Virus record (IMG/VR): IMGVR_UViG_3300032011_000051
Coordinates: 1-35,520 of that record
Length of the DNA: 35,520 nt
Strand: one strand, 5' to 3'
Origin: a virus
A program made the position numbers and the translations under genes. A model generated the notes under the pieces. The model had not been told where the DNA came from, made no database searches, and worked only from the letters and a program-made list of their open reading frames with translations. This document shows, in pieces, positions 11,397-29,197 of the stretch; the stretch's first letter is position 1, and each line of letters starts with the position of its first letter.

Positions 11397-12359
11397 ATGT
11401 CTAAAGAAATATTTATAAACACTGGTACTAGTTTTCAACAACAGTATATTGCGAGACAACCTGCGATTGGAACTGCTCCTATTACTGCACAATATGATGC
11501 ACAAGGAAATGCAAGTCAGCAGTCTCCGTTCACTTACGCTCACAGGTCACCGTTCACTTATAGAAATCCTGTAAATAGTCAGACACCTTATATCGCAAAC
11601 GCAAGACAACCTAACACTTACAGAAATCCTGTAAACAGTCAGTCTCCATATATTGCTAATAGTCAGACTCCATTTACATATGCACGACAAGCTCAAGCAA
11701 CGTATCCGTATGCTGCTAGCGACCAACAACCGTATCCTTACAATGCGAATAGTCAGACTCCATTTACCTATCAACACAGGACTCCGTTCACTTATAGAAA
11801 TCCTGTAAATAGTCAGACTCCGTTTAACTATCAGGCAAGACAGCCTGGAACTTATAGAAATCCTGTAAATAGTCAGACTCCATTTACATATAATCACAGG
11901 ACTCCGTTCACTTATAGAAGTCCTGTAAATAGTCAGACTCCATTTACATATAATCACAGGTCGCCATTTACCTATCAAGCAACAGGGACACAACCTTACA
12001 TTTACACATTCACTTCGAATGGAGATGTTACTAGATATGAACCTGGCGGAAAGATTAGTGTTTATTTTCAAGCAACAAATATGTCTCCAGCTTTGAGTCT
12101 AGATGGAGATAGTTTAACTGTTTATTCTCATCGTGACGGTGGTGGATTAAAATTATCTTGGAGTAGTCTTAACACTAACTGGACAACTTGTCGGATCGGG
12201 TCAAGTTCTTCAAATTATACTACATTAACAAGAACCACAGATTTTACTGTTACTGGCGGTATTCATCATACTGGGGCATCTCAAGGTGCCATTGTAGGCA
12301 GCCCGATTTATATTCCGAATAGTAATGGTGCATCTTTGTACTTTGCTTTACTAGGTTAA
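11397..12359 (+). CDS. Repeat fibre A: Pro/Tyr/Asn-rich repeats with C-terminal beta domain
   Basis: A 320-residue protein of unknown family. A short N-terminal cap (residues 1-38) precedes about 160 residues of repeats built from four-residue blocks: SQTP, FTYN, HRTP, FTYR, NPVN, ARQP, GTYR, YIAN. Residues 205-320 are non-repetitive and beta-rich (DVTRYEPGGKISVYFQATN, then SLTVYSHRDGGGLKLSW), plausibly a tip domain. No signal peptide is seen and I find no clear Shine-Dalgarno. The oxygenase gene begins one base after its stop codon. It sits among fibre genes and shares repeats with genes at 13113, 21162 and 22613. A virion fibre or adhesin is inferred. Confidence 0.65.
   Translation: MSKEIFINTGTSFQQQYIARQPAIGTAPITAQYDAQGNASQQSPFTYAHRSPFTYRNPVNSQTPYIANARQPNTYRNPVNSQSPYIANSQTPFTYARQAQATYPYAASDQQPYPYNANSQTPFTYQHRTPFTYRNPVNSQTPFNYQARQPGTYRNPVNSQTPFTYNHRTPFTYRSPVNSQTPFTYNHRSPFTYQATGTQPYIYTFTSNGDVTRYEPGGKISVYFQATNMSPALSLDGDSLTVYSHRDGGGLKLSWSSLNTNWTTCRIGSSSSNYTTLTRTTDFTVTGGIHHTGASQGAIVGSPIYIPNSNGASLYFALLG
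11512..11982 (+). repeat. 12-bp-lattice tandem repeats in repeat fibre A
   Basis: Blocks recur at multiples of 12 bp. The CACAGGACTCCGTTCACT block at 11775 returns at 11895 (120 bp), and an AGTCAGACTCCATTTACA block at 11872 returns at 11932 (60 bp). Synonymous differences between copies leave the peptide units unchanged. Confidence 0.85.
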
Positions 12360-12360
12360 C

Positions 12361-13113
12361 ATGAATAATTTAATATACAAATATACGATTGATAATCATA
12401 AAGAACTTAATAAGAGTCTTTTAGATTTCTTTGACGCTTTACCTACTCAAATTGGTAATCAAGATTATAATTTAGGAATTACTAAATTTGATGGGCATAA
12501 CCACCCTTCTTCCCCTATCTTACCAACAGGTTGGCAATACCAAGACTCAATTAATGATTATACTGGTGGTAGTGGAGATATTGATGAATGGGATATGAAT
12601 GTAAAGGGGTATCCTCATATAGAATATAAGAAAATGTTCTTAGATGCTGTAGAGAATAAATTTCATGACCACGCAAGGTTTCATATACAGCCAGAAATTA
12701 CTGGTTTAGAATATAAATTTAATATTATGCATATGTGGTATCACCAAATGTTTCAATCAGATTATATCAGTTGGGATAATCATCAATGGTGTCAATGGTC
12801 AGCAGTATATTTTATAGAAGTACCAAATCAAAAGTATATTACAGAATTTTTGAATCCTGAAACGCAAGAAATTATACAACCTAAAGCTGAGGAAGGAGAT
12901 ATGCTTATATTCCCTTCTTGGTTATTACACCGTGCCCCTAAAATGGAAACGAATGAACGTAAAAGTATTATAGCTTGGAACATGGACGTATGTTATGTAT
13001 TCCCGAAAAATCATATTAAGAGTTTAAAAGAGTCGCACCCAAATAATTGGAGTAATAACTATAAATATGAAGTCAAACAAGCAAAACAAGTAGACTATTT
13101 GGGGGTAGCGTAA
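12361..13113 (+). CDS. 2-oxoglutarate/Fe(II) oxygenase-like protein between two repeat-fibre genes
   Basis: A 250-residue protein resembling the putative 2OG-Fe(II) oxygenases (PF13759-like double-stranded beta-helix) of marine phages. Visible signatures are the first metal region SWDNHQWCQWSAVYFIEVP (D139, H141), the strand EGDMLIFPSWLLHRAP with distal H190, and NERKSIIAWN with the 2OG-binding Arg R200. The first motif reads D-x-H where relatives have H-x-D or H-x-H, so activity is likely but not certain. Its ATG is one base after repeat fibre A, and its stop TAA overlaps the ATG of repeat fibre B. These junctions suggest coupled expression with both. Hydroxylation of fibre Pro, Asn or Tyr is my inference; no substrate is shown. 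Confidence 0.7.
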   Translation: MNNLIYKYTIDNHKELNKSLLDFFDALPTQIGNQDYNLGITKFDGHNHPSSPILPTGWQYQDSINDYTGGSGDIDEWDMNVKGYPHIEYKKMFLDAVENKFHDHARFHIQPEITGLEYKFNIMHMWYHQMFQSDYISWDNHQWCQWSAVYFIEVPNQKYITEFLNPETQEIIQPKAEEGDMLIFPSWLLHRAPKMETNERKSIIAWNMDVCYVFPKNHIKSLKESHPNNWSNNYKYEVKQAKQVDYLGVA

Positions 13114-21161: not shown

Positions 21162-22613
21162 ATGGCAACAGGAAAACAACACGTCAAAACACCTACAGGT
21201 TGGAATGCCACACAAGGTGCGTGGGTAAAGACGGGTGGAACGACTTGGAAAGCTGCAGAACAGGTTTATGTAAAGACTGGGCCTTCCACTTGGAATAACG
21301 CTTCGGGTCAGACTTCAGTTCAACAACCTTATCCATACATTGCTAATAGTCAGACTCCAAGTATTGCGAACGCACAACAACCTTATCCATACATTGCTAA
21401 TAGTCAGACCCCAAGTATTGCGAATAGACAAAATCCGTACCCTTATATAGCAAATGCTCAAGCTCCAAGTATTGCGAACGCTCAACAACCTTACCCGTAT
21501 ATAGCAAGCAATCAGACCCCAAGTATTGCGAATAGACAAAATCCTTACCCGTATATAGCAAGTAATCAGACTCCATATATTGCGAATAGACAAAATCCTT
21601 ATCCGTATATTGCGAGCAATCAAACACCATATATTGCTAATGCACAACAACCTTATCCGTATATTGCTAGTCAACCTACAACATATGCAAGACAAGGTCA
21701 GACACCTAGTACATATCAAAACAGGAATCCATTTACCTATAGAAGTCCTGTAAGCGCACAGCAACCTTATATCGCAAACGCAAGACAGCCTGGAACATAC
21801 AGACACCCATTTACATACAGAGTTCCTTATATCGCAAACGCAAGACAGCCTGGAACATACAGAAACCCATTTACATATAGGGTTCCTTATATTGCTAATG
21901 CAAGAAATCCATTCACATATAGAAACCCATTTACATACAGGGTTCCTTATATCGCAAACGCAAGACAACCATACATTGCTAATGCAAGACAGCCTGGAAC
22001 ATATAGAAACCCATTTACATACAGAGTTCCTTATATAGCAAACAGTCAGAATCCATTTACCTTTCAACAGAGGACACCAGTTTCGTATGCATATCGTAAT
22101 CCATACACTTATCCGTATGGTGGCGGTGGTGGTGGGTGTTTCATTGCTGGAACACAAATTTTGATGGCTGATAACAATCATATGAACATAGAAAACGTTA
22201 ATGTTGGAGATGCAGTAATGACATTTGACTTTAGTCATGGTAAACTTATGCCTCAGAATGTTACTGAGGTCATGGTTCCAAGAGAAAACATAAAAGTTTG
22301 GAACGTAGAATTATCAAATGGAAAAACACTAGGTGTAACAGGTGGACACCCAATACACACTGATTCAGGTTGGAAATATGCGAATCAGGAAGAGTGTGAT
22401 ATTGAGTTAAAAGACGTTGATTGGGGAATAGAACTAAGTGGAGAACTCGCAGTAGGAGACGAAGTCTTTACAGTTGGTCAATCAGGGGTAACAGTTAACT
22501 CCATAACAGAAAATGGAACTGCTACAGTCTATCATTTAACTTCCGTTGAACACACTAAAACATACTTTACAGAAGGTGTGTTAGTTCATAACGGCGGGGG
22601 GAATAAAAGATAA
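21162..22613 (+). CDS. Repeat fibre C with C-terminal Hint autoprocessing domain
   Basis: A 483-residue protein in three parts. Residues 1-50 carry three VKTG strands (GAWVKTGGTTWK, QVYVKTGPSTWN), a phage virion-protein pattern. Residues 52-318 are Pro/Tyr repeats (QQPYPYIANSQTPSIAN early, then 20-residue units containing YIANARQPGTYRNP). After six glycines comes a Hint domain, residues 326-477. It has Cys326 as first residue (CFIAGTQILM), the VGDAVMTFD strand, the block-B motif TGGHPIHT with TxxH, and a final YHLTSVEHTKTYFTEGVLVHN ending His476-Asn477. The next residue is Gly, not Cys/Ser/Thr, and only GGGNKR follows. This suits cleavage or ligation at Cys326 rather than canonical splicing. 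Its stop overlaps the next ATG. Confidence 0.82.
   Translation: MATGKQHVKTPTGWNATQGAWVKTGGTTWKAAEQVYVKTGPSTWNNASGQTSVQQPYPYIANSQTPSIANAQQPYPYIANSQTPSIANRQNPYPYIANAQAPSIANAQQPYPYIASNQTPSIANRQNPYPYIASNQTPYIANRQNPYPYIASNQTPYIANAQQPYPYIASQPTTYARQGQTPSTYQNRNPFTYRSPVSAQQPYIANARQPGTYRHPFTYRVPYIANARQPGTYRNPFTYRVPYIANARNPFTYRNPFTYRVPYIANARQPYIANARQPGTYRNPFTYRVPYIANSQNPFTFQQRTPVSYAYRNPYTYPYGGGGGGCFIAGTQILMADNNHMNIENVNVGDAVMTFDFSHGKLMPQNVTEVMVPRENIKVWNVELSNGKTLGVTGGHPIHTDSGWKYANQEECDIELKDVDWGIELSGELAVGDEVFTVGQSGVTVNSITENGTATVYHLTSVEHTKTYFTEGVLVHNGGGNKR
21318..22115 (+). repeat. Repeat tract of repeat fibre C, 60-bp period in its second half
   Basis: From about 21765 to 22040 the DNA repeats every 60 bp (20 residues); CCTTATATCGCAAACG recurs at 21765, 21825 and 21945, with a diverged copy at 21885. 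The first half uses shorter units encoding QQPYPYIAN and SQTPSIAN. The tract has no Asp, Glu, Lys, Leu, Cys, Met or Trp. Confidence 0.88.
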
Positions 22614-23473
22614 TGGCAATCGGACAAGCACAACAACCAGTAATCGCTAATACCCAGCAACCTGCCATTGCTTCAGCTAGGCAGCCTGGAACTTATAACG
22701 CAAGGTATCCTGCTAATGGACAGTCTCCTAGTAATAGTCAGAGTCCATTTACCTATAACGCAAGGACTCCGTATACCTATAACGCAAGGTATCCTGCGAA
22801 TGCTCAGTCTCCTAGTAATGCGAGACAACCGTTCACATATAACGCAAGGTATCCTGCTAATGGACAGTCTCCTAGTAATAGTCAGAGTCCATTCACATAT
22901 AACGCAAGGTATCCTGCGAACGCAAGACAACCTAGTAATAGTCAGAGTCCGTTCACATATAATAATAGGAGTCCATTTACCTATAGGAATCCTGTAGCTG
23001 GACAACAACCTTATATTGCGAATAGACAAAATCCATATCCATATATTGCTAGTCAACCTACAACATATGCGAGACAAGGACAGACTCCATTTACATATAG
23101 TAATAGGCAGCCAGGAACGTATGCTAGACAAGGTCAGACACCTACTACATATCAAAACAGACAGCCTGGCACATATGCTAGACAAGGTCAAACACCTACT
23201 ACATATCAACATAGAACGCCTGGCACATATGCGAGACAAGGTCAAACACCATTTACCTATCAACATAGAACACCAAGTACATATGCTAGACAAGGTCAAA
23301 CACCAACGACTTATCAACATAGAACGCCTGGCACATATGCAAGACAAGGTCAGACACCGTTCACATATCAACATAGGACGCCTGGAACTTATGCCCGACA
23401 AGGTAGAACACCAGTCATTAGGTGGGATAGTACACTATCTCAACAATGGCCTGCTACACCAGTTACAAGTTAA
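22613..23473 (+). CDS. Repeat fibre D
   Basis: A 286-residue protein that is repetitive nearly end to end. The first half uses units such as TYNARYPANGQSPSNSQSP; the second uses an 18-residue unit, GTYARQGQTPTTYQHRTP, repeated about six times with a perfect 54-bp spacing in places. Until about residue 266 it contains no Asp, Glu, Lys, Leu, Cys, Trp or internal Met, so it is strongly basic through Arg. Only the last 20 residues (VIRWDSTLSQQWPATPVTS) differ. It has neither the Hint domain of its upstream paralogue nor the tip domain of repeat fibre A. The start overlaps the 21162 stop (TAATG). The function is not recognised; a fibre partner of the Hint protein is possible. Confidence 0.62.
   Translation: MAIGQAQQPVIANTQQPAIASARQPGTYNARYPANGQSPSNSQSPFTYNARTPYTYNARYPANAQSPSNARQPFTYNARYPANGQSPSNSQSPFTYNARYPANARQPSNSQSPFTYNNRSPFTYRNPVAGQQPYIANRQNPYPYIASQPTTYARQGQTPFTYSNRQPGTYARQGQTPTTYQNRQPGTYARQGQTPTTYQHRTPGTYARQGQTPFTYQHRTPSTYARQGQTPTTYQHRTPGTYARQGQTPFTYQHRTPGTYARQGRTPVIRWDSTLSQQWPATPVTS
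22616..23415 (+). repeat. Repeat tract of repeat fibre D, 54-bp period in its second half
   Basis: TATGCTAGACAAGG occurs at 23120 and 23174, 54 bp apart, with further diverged copies to 23400. A segment near 23042 (ATATTGCTAGTCAACC and following) is almost identical to one near 21660 in repeat fibre C. Confidence 0.88.
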
Positions 23474-23506: not shown

Positions 23507-25027
23507 ATGGAAAAAATTACTACACTAGAGCAAGCTCAATCTCTTATCACCAAAGAAACTATGGACGCCTTACATTTAGGTTCCCTTAATATTGGTGAAA
23601 CAGATAAAGAATCATATAAAATCATACAGTGGTTGTTTGAAGAAATTCTTCCACCACTTAAAATCTTTAAATGGGGTGATACACTTCAATTAAGAAAAGA
23701 AAAAAGATTCATGAGTTTTAATGGTCTATTAGATAAGTCTAATTATTATCATAGGTATCTTCCTCATGGTTATTCTAGTTTAAACATGGTGGGAAATCAC
23801 GCAGGATTCGGATTCCAAAAAGAAGATGAAGAAGTTAACATTTTAGATACTGTTGTAAATGTTAGACCGTCTCATAAAGAAGACCCAAGAGTAAAAGAAG
23901 TAGTAGGTTCTTGTTATTACCATAGTGCAAAAGCACACTGGTTAACTCAAAGTATTCAAGAAGAAGGACTTTGGGCACCAATTCAAGGTTATACAACAAA
24001 TCCAGTTGATGACCTAATTCAATTAACAATCCACCCAGGCTCTGTTCGTTCTTGCGTATTTGAAGAAATGGAAAATGACGATATGGAGTGTATGATATGG
24101 GATAAGACTGGACAACTCTCAGATTTTCCAAGTACAACACTTGATGAAGTATTAGAGTATTGGGGCGATAAACTAGACAAAAGAGGAAGACATAAAAATA
24201 TTGCATTCCAACTATGTCGGGGTGTGATAGAATGGCAAACAGATTTAGCAGAACTTGGATTTAGAGATGATGTCTTTAAGTTTAATAAAAAGGTTCATAA
24301 ACTTTCTGCAGGTAAACCACTAACCGTTTATATCGGTTATGATAGTACAATGAATGATTTAGAGAAAGTGTGTGAAAAGTCAATCACACAAACAATCTCA
24401 GATGCACATTCACTGGGTGAGTTTCAAGAGTACACTAGATTTAGTCCAACCATTAAATTGCTTGACATTTCTAAACTTCCCGATTATAATAGGGAGTACG
24501 CAAATCAAAGTACTGAATTTACATACAGTAGATTTCTTATACCACACTTAGAGAACTATGAAGGGTTTAGTCTATTTGTGGATAACGATTTTATATTTAA
24601 GAAGTCATTACTACCTATGTTCTATTATCTAAATCCTGATGATGCAGTTGCGTGTATCAAATACCCACAATATAAACATGACGAGTCTAAGTTCAATGGA
24701 GAAGTAAACATAGATTATCCATGTAAATTGTGGTCTTCAATGATGTTTTTCAACAACAGTCATGAGGACTGTAAGAAGTTAACACCTGAAGTTGTGAACA
24801 CTTGGACAGGAAAACAACTACATCAGTTCGAATGGACTAATGCAATATCTGAAATACCTCAAAAATATATATTTGTCGAAGGTTATGACAACCCTGAAGA
24901 GAAGTGGGATTACACTGGGATTCATTACACTAGGGGCGGGCCTTGGATAAATGATATGAATTTTGACTCTATAAATAATCTTGAAGTATACAACAAGTAC
25001 AAAAACCTCTATGACTCCACGCAATAA
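23507..25027 (+). CDS. ParB-like region fused to a GT-A (GT8-like) glycosyltransferase
   Basis: A 506-residue two-part protein. Residues about 115-215 contain VNVRPSHKEDPRVKEVV, LTQSIQEEGLWAPIQGY and HPGSVRSCVF (H176-R181). This order recalls ParB/sulfiredoxin-like domains with a HPGxxR-type motif, although the assignment is tentative. Residues about 270-500 look like a GT-A glycosyltransferase: LTVYIGYDSTMNDL at the start of the fold, STEFTYSRFLIPHL, then SLFVDNDFIF with a DxD motif (D359, D361) for metal and nucleotide-sugar binding, and the late GIHYTRGGPW segment. Start: ATG 23507 with AAAGGA upstream and its own late promoter. It follows four repeat fibres, so glycosylation of fibres is a reasonable inference; host surface or phage DNA are other possible acceptors. 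Confidence 0.65.
   Translation: MEKITTLEQAQSLITKETMDALHLGSLNIGETDKESYKIIQWLFEEILPPLKIFKWGDTLQLRKEKRFMSFNGLLDKSNYYHRYLPHGYSSLNMVGNHAGFGFQKEDEEVNILDTVVNVRPSHKEDPRVKEVVGSCYYHSAKAHWLTQSIQEEGLWAPIQGYTTNPVDDLIQLTIHPGSVRSCVFEEMENDDMECMIWDKTGQLSDFPSTTLDEVLEYWGDKLDKRGRHKNIAFQLCRGVIEWQTDLAELGFRDDVFKFNKKVHKLSAGKPLTVYIGYDSTMNDLEKVCEKSITQTISDAHSLGEFQEYTRFSPTIKLLDISKLPDYNREYANQSTEFTYSRFLIPHLENYEGFSLFVDNDFIFKKSLLPMFYYLNPDDAVACIKYPQYKHDESKFNGEVNIDYPCKLWSSMMFFNNSHEDCKKLTPEVVNTWTGKQLHQFEWTNAISEIPQKYIFVEGYDNPEEKWDYTGIHYTRGGPWINDMNFDSINNLEVYNKYKNLYDSTQ
24970..24977 (+). promoter_or_regulatory. Possible late promoter inside 23507 for downstream genes
   Basis: A perfect TATAAATA lies inside the 3' end of the GT gene, 85 bases before ATG 25062. 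It could drive the 25062-29197 enzyme group, but AT-rich coding DNA can produce this octamer by chance. Confidence 0.35.
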
Positions 25028-25632: not shown

Positions 25633-26343
25633 ATGGAGATTGTTCATTTAGATGAACCTTTCAAAATACAGACTTTACCCTTAACAAAAGTTTATGTATT
25701 AGATGATTGGTTGGCTCAACCATTACATCATCATTATGATGAAAGAATCTCTCTTGATAACATATGGAGTAAGACAAATCAAGTCAGTAGTGGTTCTTCA
25801 ACTGGTTTACCACACCATAGTTTTTGGGGTGCAACATTTTTTAGAAACTTTCATAAAATCGATAAAGATGTCAGAATCGAAGACACTTGGTTTACAAATT
25901 ACTTAGATAGAAGACTTCAAACTGAGTTTGGTTTTAAATGGGTAAGGTTTCAATACGCAGGCCTAAATAGTCAGACTCAAGGATTACAGGGAACTACACA
26001 TCAAGATTGTGCAGAAGAAGACAGTTGGAATCTTTCATTTCTATATTACCCAAATAGATATTGGAATCCTGCGTGGGGTGGAACATTAAGATTATATGAT
26101 AAACCTCAACAGGGTTTAGACGGTAGAGATGAACATATTAAGAATCACCAAATAGGTGAGATTGATTTTAAACCAAATAGACTTATTATGTTTGACGGAA
26201 GAATACCACATGGTGCAGATGCACCCGACCCAAGTTCGAGGTACATGGATAGACGTTCATTAGTGGTTCGTGGAGACGAGGTCAGATTAGAAGAAGAGGG
26301 GGAAAATTATCATGCCGATGATAGACTTTCATACATACGATAA
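25633..26343 (+). CDS. 2OG-Fe(II) dioxygenase, prolyl-4-hydroxylase-like
   Basis: A 236-residue enzyme of the P4H-type 2OG/Fe(II) family. The facial triad is complete: THQDC with H123-x-D125, the distal H193 in MFDGRIPHGADAP, and the 2OG-binding basic residue at R207/R208 in DRRSLVV. Between them are the expected core strands WNLSFLYYPNRYWNPAWGGTLRLYD and IDFKPNRLIMF. These enzymes hydroxylate Pro or other side chains using O2, Fe(II) and 2-oxoglutarate. The ATG at 25633 follows the 25631 stop by one base, and the 3' end overlaps the next gene by 32 bases. With proline-rich repeat fibres just upstream, they are the obvious candidate substrates; that link is inference. Confidence 0.8.
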   Translation: MEIVHLDEPFKIQTLPLTKVYVLDDWLAQPLHHHYDERISLDNIWSKTNQVSSGSSTGLPHHSFWGATFFRNFHKIDKDVRIEDTWFTNYLDRRLQTEFGFKWVRFQYAGLNSQTQGLQGTTHQDCAEEDSWNLSFLYYPNRYWNPAWGGTLRLYDKPQQGLDGRDEHIKNHQIGEIDFKPNRLIMFDGRIPHGADAPDPSSRYMDRRSLVVRGDEVRLEEEGENYHADDRLSYIR

Positions 26344-27223: not shown

Positions 27224-28497
27224 ATATACTAAATTTAAATCTTCCTCGTTGTCATTTTCATACTTTGATAGAATTAGTAAATTCTGGCCATACAGTTTAC
27301 AGTAATTGGACGTATGTAAATGAATACGAATCTTCTCTTGGTATAACCCCTTTAACTGAAGAAGAAAATCGTAGGGTAACTGGTCTTGGTAAGTATTCGC
27401 CAGAAAGAGTGGAAGATATACCCATTCAAATAAGTGAAAAAAGAAAGATAGAATCATGTGCATTTATAGAAGGACTTATTGATAAGTACAACATTGATAT
27501 TCTTCAAGTCTGTATTCCTGATATATCTTTTTTACATACCTATTTTAAAGATAAAGTTAAGTACATAGGCCCAACAGAAAAATCAGGTCGTCTAGAAACA
27601 GACAAGTTATTTGCAAAAGATACAGCTAAGCAACTTGGGGTAAGGGTTCCTAATATTGTTAAACACGGAAAATATTTAGATGAAGATTATTGTGAGGGAC
27701 TTTCCTTTCCATGTGTAGAGAAAGCCTCTCATATTTGGTATCCTGCAATAGTGATTAATAGTGAGGAAGACATAAAACCCCTTAAAGATTTGAATACCAA
27801 CCCTGAATGGCCGAGATGTATAAATGCAGATTATTTCATAGAAGAATATTTGCATGATATGATAGAAACAAATGTATTCTTTGTAGTTTCAAATGGAGAA
27901 TATTCTATAACTCATACCCAAGAGATAATAGGTGAGGGGTTGAATAAAGGTGTAATCCCACAAGTATGGTATTTCGACACATATGTGAAACCATTAAGTC
28001 CTTCCGTAGATAAGATAGTCAGAAAAGAGTCTGAAAAATATTTAGAACATATCGCTAAAATGGGTGGAAGTTGGGAAGGAAGTTTTTGTGGTGCCTACAC
28101 TTCTAAAGGAGAATGGTATTTCTTAGAACTGAATGTAAGACCTGATATATTTAATAGTACACCTACATTTATGACTGGTGATGAATATCTAAAAGGTATG
28201 TTTGAAGATGTATCACTGTTTGAAAAGGCTTGGGAAAACAAAGATTGTAGAAAGTATTTAATTACAAGTGATAGTGATAAAAATGAGTACCCTATATATC
28301 TGCATGATAAGTATAATGTTGCTTATCCTAATAATTTGTCTATAAAAGACAACAAATATTATATTAGTGAGTATGGTGTAGGAAACATCAGTGATAGAGG
28401 AACGGTTATATCAGACCACAATATTCCAATAGAATTTCTAAAAGAAGTTGAAGAAACAACTGTATGGAAGTTCAACAGAGACCCAAATGGCAGTTAG
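27220..28497 (+). CDS. ATP-grasp family ligase
   Basis: A 425-residue protein. The N-terminal part (INLNLPRCHFHTLIELVNSGHTVY-like strand-helix, then IDILQVCIPD) is a Rossmann-like pre-ATP-grasp domain. KYIGPTEKSGRLETDKLFAKDTAKQLGVRVPNIV is the classic entry to an ATP-grasp fold, as in PurD or carbamoyl-phosphate synthase. Later come YFIEEYLHD and WYFLELNVRPD, where E and N would bind the metals. These enzymes form C-N or C-S bonds through an acyl phosphate. The start is taken as GTG 27220, overlapping the previous TGA, rather than the in-frame TTG 27205. The substrate is unknown. It ends 11 bases inside the next dioxygenase gene, suggesting a linked pathway. Confidence 0.65.
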   Translation: MNILNLNLPRCHFHTLIELVNSGHTVYSNWTYVNEYESSLGITPLTEEENRRVTGLGKYSPERVEDIPIQISEKRKIESCAFIEGLIDKYNIDILQVCIPDISFLHTYFKDKVKYIGPTEKSGRLETDKLFAKDTAKQLGVRVPNIVKHGKYLDEDYCEGLSFPCVEKASHIWYPAIVINSEEDIKPLKDLNTNPEWPRCINADYFIEEYLHDMIETNVFFVVSNGEYSITHTQEIIGEGLNKGVIPQVWYFDTYVKPLSPSVDKIVRKESEKYLEHIAKMGGSWEGSFCGAYTSKGEWYFLELNVRPDIFNSTPTFMTGDEYLKGMFEDVSLFEKAWENKDCRKYLITSDSDKNEYPIYLHDKYNVAYPNNLSIKDNKYYISEYGVGNISDRGTVISDHNIPIEFLKEVEETTVWKFNRDPNGS

Positions 28498-29197
28498 ATT
28501 ACTATTCCCAACTTATGTATTCCATAGGAACTTCACGCAAGAAGGCTTACCTGAAGATAAGGGATTTTCAAAAGAATATTGTCTAATGTTGCGAAACGAA
28601 ATGGACGCCATGAGAAGAAGAGACCCAAAAGGAAGACAACTCTCTAATCAATATACAGGTTGGCAATCAAAAGATGGGTGCGAAAGAAGCCCAACTTTTC
28701 AGAAATGCATGAATAGAATAGAACAATTTTTTATTGACGAAGTAATGCCTTTTCATGGACTTAAACCTTCAGAGTGTAAGTTAGATATAAACAATTCATG
28801 GGCAAACATTAACAATAATGGTGCTTGGAACGCACCACATTTACATAATGGTTGTTGGTATAGTGGTGTATTCTATATTCATGGAGACGGTGACGAGGGT
28901 CGTATATCAATGATTGATACGCATCAAAAGGTGGCTGCAGATTTTCCACATAGTCTTAGAACACCAACTTCTTCATATTTTGAACCCTATACTGGTGAGT
29001 GTATATTATTCCCAAGTGGTCTCATGCACATGGTAGAACCCAACCCAACAAACAAAGAGAGATATAGTATATCTTTTAATTGTACCTTAAAATATCTAAA
29101 CGATGATGCAATATTTTGTAAAGGTCTTGAAGCTGATAACTATAACCCCGATGAGTTTTTATTTGATATAGATGATAAAGGGAACGCAATTAGATAG
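28487..29197 (+). CDS. 2OG-Fe(II) oxygenase-like protein (PF13759 type)
   Basis: A 236-residue protein starting MAVRLLFPTYVFHRNF, a start common in this phage/marine family. The in-frame TTG at 28448 gives a longer form but lies deep in the upstream gene and is less likely. Metal and cosubstrate residues are visible: APHLHNGCWYSGVFYIHG (H118-x-H120), GECILFPSGLMHMVEPN (H181) and KERYSISFN (R192). This matches the putative 2OG-Fe(II) oxygenase family in which H-x-H replaces H-x-D. It overlaps the ATP-grasp gene by 11 bases. It is the third dioxygenase-like gene in the window, and its substrate is unknown. Confidence 0.78.
   Translation: MAVRLLFPTYVFHRNFTQEGLPEDKGFSKEYCLMLRNEMDAMRRRDPKGRQLSNQYTGWQSKDGCERSPTFQKCMNRIEQFFIDEVMPFHGLKPSECKLDINNSWANINNNGAWNAPHLHNGCWYSGVFYIHGDGDEGRISMIDTHQKVAADFPHSLRTPTSSYFEPYTGECILFPSGLMHMVEPNPTNKERYSISFNCTLKYLNDDAIFCKGLEADNYNPDEFLFDIDDKGNAIR

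Follow-up and report, generated by a model that had tools for sequence, protein, structure and literature searches.

Why should a repeat-rich protein from the tail-gene region of a phage end in a complete autoprocessing domain that is followed by only six residues? The question is raised by one gene of a 35,520-nt (35.5-kb) IMG/VR virus record (IMGVR_UViG_3300032011_000051), which is referred to here, at its full length, as the window. The source of the window is a marine T4-like phage. The window carries a T4-like structural set (baseplate wedge, tail fibres, neck, tail sheath stabiliser, and both terminase subunits), and its 2226-aa protein is closest to counterparts in Methylophilales phage Melnitz and Pelagibacter phage Mosig. 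The gene of interest, fibre A (21162..22613, plus strand, as are all its parts given below), encodes 483 aa comprising an N-extein, a Hint domain, and a 6-aa tail; "fibre" is used as a putative designation, based only on the repeats and on placement in the tail-gene region. The protein begins with a conserved N-terminal piece (residues 1-55, MATGKQHVKTPTGWNATQGAWVKTGGTTWK...; 21162..21326), followed by short repeats rich in Pro, Tyr, Ala, and Asn (PYIANxQ or NPFTYR type; residues 56-319; 21327..22118) and by six glycines (residues 320-325; 22119..22136) directly N-terminal of the Hint domain (Cys326-Asn477; 22137..22592). The translation of the latter part is ...NPYTYPY-GGGGGG-C326-FIAGTQILMADNN...VTGGHPIHT...VYHLTSVEHTKTYFTEGVLVH476-N477-GGGNKR*, in which the TxxH of block B is TGGH (residues 393-396; 22338..22349; invariant in A1) and block G is His476-Asn477 (22587..22592). 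The DNA of the GGGNKR tail (22593..22610) is also the purine-rich stretch just before the next gene, fibre B. An earlier note had placed a complete Hint domain at 22137-22592, and its coordinates and residue numbers proved exact in the translation. Also as it had described, the translation has Cys326, TGGH, and His476-Asn477 intact, six glycines before Cys326, and a C-terminal domain in which Gly follows Asn and GGGNKR is all that remains.

The identity of the domain was supported by family, structure, and profile searches. With whole fibre A as query, Pfam returned Hom_end_hint (E = 3.5e-7) and Vint (E = 4.3e-7, above its cut-off), and with the isolated domain Vint, Hom_end_hint, and Hint each exceeded the cut-off. 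The C-terminus of fibre A is a complete Hint domain, well beyond chance. An AlphaFold2 model based on an alignment of 47 viral-contig Hint domains (pLDDT 90.6, pTM 0.86) superseded an earlier weak run on 6 sequences (pLDDT 75), and the comparison with Hint structures that the earlier note had proposed gave the expected fold. In Foldseek searches against the PDB, BUBL1 BIL2 (6y75) ranked first (E = 6.5e-10, TM 0.84 by target) and the C. thermocellum BIL ranked fifth, ahead of all inteins, with Hedgehog further down. Profile searches showed the same order, with E values of approximately 2e-26 for the BILs 6y75 and 2lwy, 5e-16 for the best intein, and 7.5e-5 for Hedgehog (1at0). Among known kinds, the A-type BIL domain comes closest, ahead of Hedgehog and the canonical inteins. 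The likeness to both Hedgehog and BIL domains drawn in the earlier note was therefore right for BIL, and the Gly-Cys-Phe junction is Hedgehog-like, but Hedgehog is not the nearest relative.

The catalytic residues were conserved throughout. Cys1, TxxH, and His-Asn were kept in all four divergent types of fibre A Hint, at identities down to approximately 31%, and the residue after Asn, Gly478 here, was Gly, Ala, Met, or Phe in fibre A relatives. Among 45 distinct viral Hints with HN, the +1 residue was Lys in 18, Gly in 9, Ala in 6, and Thr in 1, and never Cys or Ser. Several viral Hint proteins terminate exactly in ...VHNK* or ...VHNKK*, Lys being the most common +1 residue (18/45). Gly occupied position -1 in all 16 distinct fibre A Hints of the set collected with the N-terminal head, the only set unbiased for the Gly-Cys junction, since a pattern search selects for that junction. 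Residue F:4, which is Asp in inteins and Asn in most of these phage Hints, is His in fibre A, and because it is neither Asp nor Asn, reaction rates could differ. The His at F:4 would also suit a Hint that is catalytically dead and serves as the structural tip of the fibre; we consider this very improbable, because a tip would not need the C1, TxxH, and HN that persist in four types at approximately 31% identity. Pairwise dN/dS values of the Hint ranged from 0.13 to 0.45 with unchanged catalytic residues, which indicates that the domain is maintained by selection.

The presence of the Hint varied among orthologues. When viral contigs were scanned with the fibre A head alone, ignoring the Hint, 59 contigs with an orthologous gene were recovered. 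A Hint profile matched strongly at 21 of these loci and not at the other 38 (37 complete and 1 truncated), and it detected no decayed or displaced Hint in the Hint-less fibre A loci. Most Hint-less orthologues terminate in short, often Gly-rich tails (PYPYGGGGVPPGFNPGDLK, YTFGGFGGFGGFNIR, PPGGEKE); the tail at L173 is APYPYGGGGVPPGFNPGDLK. As most orthologous fibres do without the domain, the Hint does not answer a general maturation need, and the suggestion in the earlier note of a maturation route, taken as a need of such fibres generally, was not borne out. At L189-L199 the fibre A head and the fibre B end are fused in one ORF without Hint; thus, one-gene and two-gene forms of the fibre system both exist. 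Fibre B precedes fibre A at L185, L205, and L253. On the last of these, contig JAAXIF010000105.1, fibre B and the neighbouring genes accompany a fibre A-Hint of type H2; the contig sits in the bin of a Sphingobacteriales MAG and probably derives from a phage. No isolate with fibre A was found, a repeat search giving one weak match to a Pseudomonas phage; in the stretches checked, neither repeat motif nor Hint occurred in Melnitz or Mosig, which are the closest isolates as judged by the 2226-aa protein. The nearest Hint matches in isolates were mostly genes annotated as helicase or terminase.

The same architecture was also found on other proteins. A scan of viral contigs for Gly-Gly-Cys-Phe-x-Ala-Gly-Thr gave at least 119 stretches, and among the matches listed a C-terminal Gly run plus Hint was also carried by proteins other than fibre A. 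The clearest case among them was a siphophage minor tail protein (phrog_2048), unrelated to fibre A. In cultured Roseobacter phages this protein ends ...EIVWGRKSS*, and in an uncultured relative (L036) the end reads ...EIIWGRSSSNT-GGGGGGG-Hint-KKDEGIGNKNEQQK. The portion before the Gly run looks like a complete functional protein. This speaks for a domain appended to the C-terminus, and it speaks against a classical intein. Hint-VHNK* is likewise the end of a 1312-aa protein of phrog_358. At L090:8802-10574, one protein contains three tandem Hints joined by the linkers HN-KG-C and HN-KGGGG-C, and its third Hint is followed by a Gly/Ser-rich stretch and then a likely membrane segment. A frequent marine viral Gly-rich protein (L034:8004-9446 and many further loci, including L039, L042, and L045) has a C-terminal domain that starts GGCFIAGTMISM...DIGD and contains GTHMV, with no His-Asn end; it is possibly a diverged or B-type-BIL-like Hint. 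This family matches GGCFxAGT and was not accepted as BIL, because the HN end is missing and no PDB entry matched convincingly.

Hint-less fibre A orthologues mostly stop after a short tail, and the minor tail proteins of isolates stop where the uncultured relative continues into Gly7-Hint, which argues for a Hint that was appended to the C-terminus and not for an intein that separates two required exteins. The reading that we favour, with a probability of approximately 0.6, is that fibre A is a precursor whose C-terminal, A-type BIL-like Hint removes itself. The Hint would fold first, and His396 of TGGH would activate the Gly325-Cys326 bond. Cys326 would then attack in an N-to-S shift, leaving fibre A as a C-terminal Gly thioester, which either water or the amine of the short tail, released as Asn477 cyclises, would resolve. 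With the 152-aa domain gone, the product would be a repeat fibre with a bare Gly-rich end, much like what Hint-less orthologues encode directly. Self-removal is the most economical reading because Hint-less orthologues fill the same slot, and it is favoured by the intact C1/TxxH/HN, the BIL-like fold, the lack of a +1 nucleophile, and the all-or-none presence of the domain. Against it, the same Hint-less orthologues leave unexplained why the Hint is kept. The earlier note had called canonical splicing unlikely, and no Cys, Ser, or Thr is indeed present at +1, but this does not by itself exclude splicing: papers cited in PMC4031507 report that BIL domains splice without a +1 nucleophile. Splicing that re-joins GGGNKR to fibre A is therefore possible.

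Instead, an amine (Lys or N terminus) on another fibre, a baseplate protein, or the cell surface could attack the thioester at the terminal Gly and thereby anchor fibre A covalently. Such conjugation, which we regard as rather unlikely, has a precedent in the nearest structural relative: BUBL1 BIL2 joins a ubiquitin-like domain to the side chain of a Lys by an isopeptide bond, and several substrates can receive the domain (PMC8616854). A flexible Gly run would be well suited to conjugation, and the occurrence of the Gly-run and Hint architecture on unrelated tail proteins also speaks for it. However, nothing found points to a particular acceptor, and orthologues at the same gene position that have no Hint manage without such a bond. 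The obvious partner would be fibre B (22613..23473, plus strand), which has fibre A-like repeats and no Hint and ends RWDSTLSQQWPATPVTS; its ATG overlaps the fibre A stop codon (TAATG). But fibre B has no distinctive N terminus, its start lies in frame 0, 1, or 2 relative to fibre A, so that no fused precursor is conserved, and in type H2 loci it is upstream. The variable frame and the H2 order also led us to reject, as a general model, a single fibre A-Hint-fibre B precursor made by read-through or frameshift in which the Hint splices A to B. The second-last residue is Lys in all type H1 tails (GGGNKR, GYYGKH, GFHEKR, AWEKF...). It was not counted as a built-in nucleophile, because this stretch of DNA doubles as the purine-rich leader of gene B, and type H2 tails, which have no gene B downstream, lack this Lys. 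More broadly, a Gly run plus BIL might form an ATP-free, enzyme-free module that couples tail proteins through a C-terminal Gly to virion or host-surface amines in uncultured marine phages, fibre A being one of several tail-protein families so equipped; we hold this to be doubtful.

The gene order fibre A, fibre B, glycosyltransferase-like gene (23507..25027, plus strand), and 189-aa gene is kept among relatives, with fibre B ending RWD...QWPATPVTS. Next after the 189-aa gene in the window is a gene with a 2OG-Fe(II) oxygenase domain (prolyl-hydroxylase-like superfamily; 25633..26343, plus strand). The conserved succession of repeat protein, glycosyltransferase, and 189-aa gene suggests that the proline-rich repeats may be hydroxylated and glycosylated in a collagen-like manner. 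Further 2OG-Fe(II) oxygenase genes are located at 28448-29197 and 12361-13113 of the window. In Pfam, a 320-aa tail-region protein (11397-12359) matches Cementoin (transglutaminase-substrate repeats) just below threshold, which likely reflects no more than short-repeat similarity.

The conserved glycosyltransferase-like protein served as marker for a gene tree, on which Hint state changed at least three times. The fibre A Hints form one clade relative to other phage Hints (support 95/90), with several long branches, and this grouping is compatible with a single origin followed by repeated losses or by lateral exchange. Between L151 and L180 the dS of the Hint (0.21) was below that of flanking coding regions (0.86, 1.60, and 1.19), which supports exchange of the Hint between these lineages. 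The same observations, together with the sporadic all-or-none presence in fibre A loci, could be explained by a selfish passenger, a small Hint that spreads among fibre genes by recombination and endures only because it splices or cuts itself out harmlessly. We consider this explanation improbable: the domain has no homing endonuclease and no conserved C-extein to restore, it sits in a variable protein, at an end that varies as well, and since tail fibre genes recombine in any case, exchange does not prove selfishness.

Because close fibre relatives lack the Hint and unrelated tail proteins have it, the distribution suggests that phages complete or attach tail parts in a way not yet described. 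In the open-access literature searched, outside which many subscription papers lie, no paper on a C-terminal BIL of phage tail-region proteins was found. If true, self-removal or conjugation would allow phages to make a defined Gly C terminus, or covalent cross-links, with a domain that they encode themselves, and could yield new protein-ligation tools.

Self-processing Hint domains of phages are reported as inteins in enzymes (such as terminase, helicase, and RNR). These inteins are common in phages and share their fold with the fibre A Hint, but they interrupt conserved enzymes and carry a +1 nucleophile, neither of which is true of fibre A. Assignment to the class 1 inteins was rejected, as Gly478 occupies the place of a +1 Cys, Ser, or Thr and, instead of two conserved exteins, there is a C-extein of 6 variable residues; Pfam found no family match to a homing endonuclease, optional in that class, in the 152-aa domain. 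Pretoxin HINT (PT-HINT) was likewise rejected, with a match below cut-off and GGGNKR in place of a toxin domain. The Hog-Hint of Hedgehog (PDB 1at0) is a C-terminal autoprocessing domain after a Gly-Cys-Phe junction, and so is placed the fibre A Hint. However, the match is weak (profile E = 7.5e-5), the Hog domain has no HN end, and fibre A, with only GGGNKR after the Hint, lacks the sterol-recognition region.

A-type BIL domains, reportedly the subject of work by Amitai in 2003 and Dassa in 2004, are the class that the domain fits best. The predicted model and Foldseek gave the Hint fold, the N-terminal Cys, TxxH, and C-terminal His-Asn are present without Cys, Ser, or Thr directly after Asn, the C-terminus is variable, with Hint present or absent among orthologues, and profiles favour BIL over the best intein (approximately 2e-26 vs. 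5e-16). The C. thermocellum BIL (PDB 2lwy) has the same Cys1, TxxH, His-Asn, and non-nucleophilic +1, and with 6y75 it is the best profile match. A-type BILs end in His-Asn and occur in variable regions of non-conserved proteins (PMC7765530), they lack a nucleophilic +1 residue (PMC7664689), and they have no endonuclease. The fibre A Hint differs from them in closing a phage tail-region protein, with oligo-Gly before it and a 6-aa tail after it, and in that orthologues without Hint exist. The nearest fold is that of Tetrahymena BUBL1 BIL2 (PDB 6y75, 6tmm), which shares the intein-like C-terminal end and whose crystal construct has Gly residues directly before position 1, as in fibre A; it differs in being eukaryotic, in lying between two ubiquitin-like domains, and in that the second of these supplies a known Lys acceptor.
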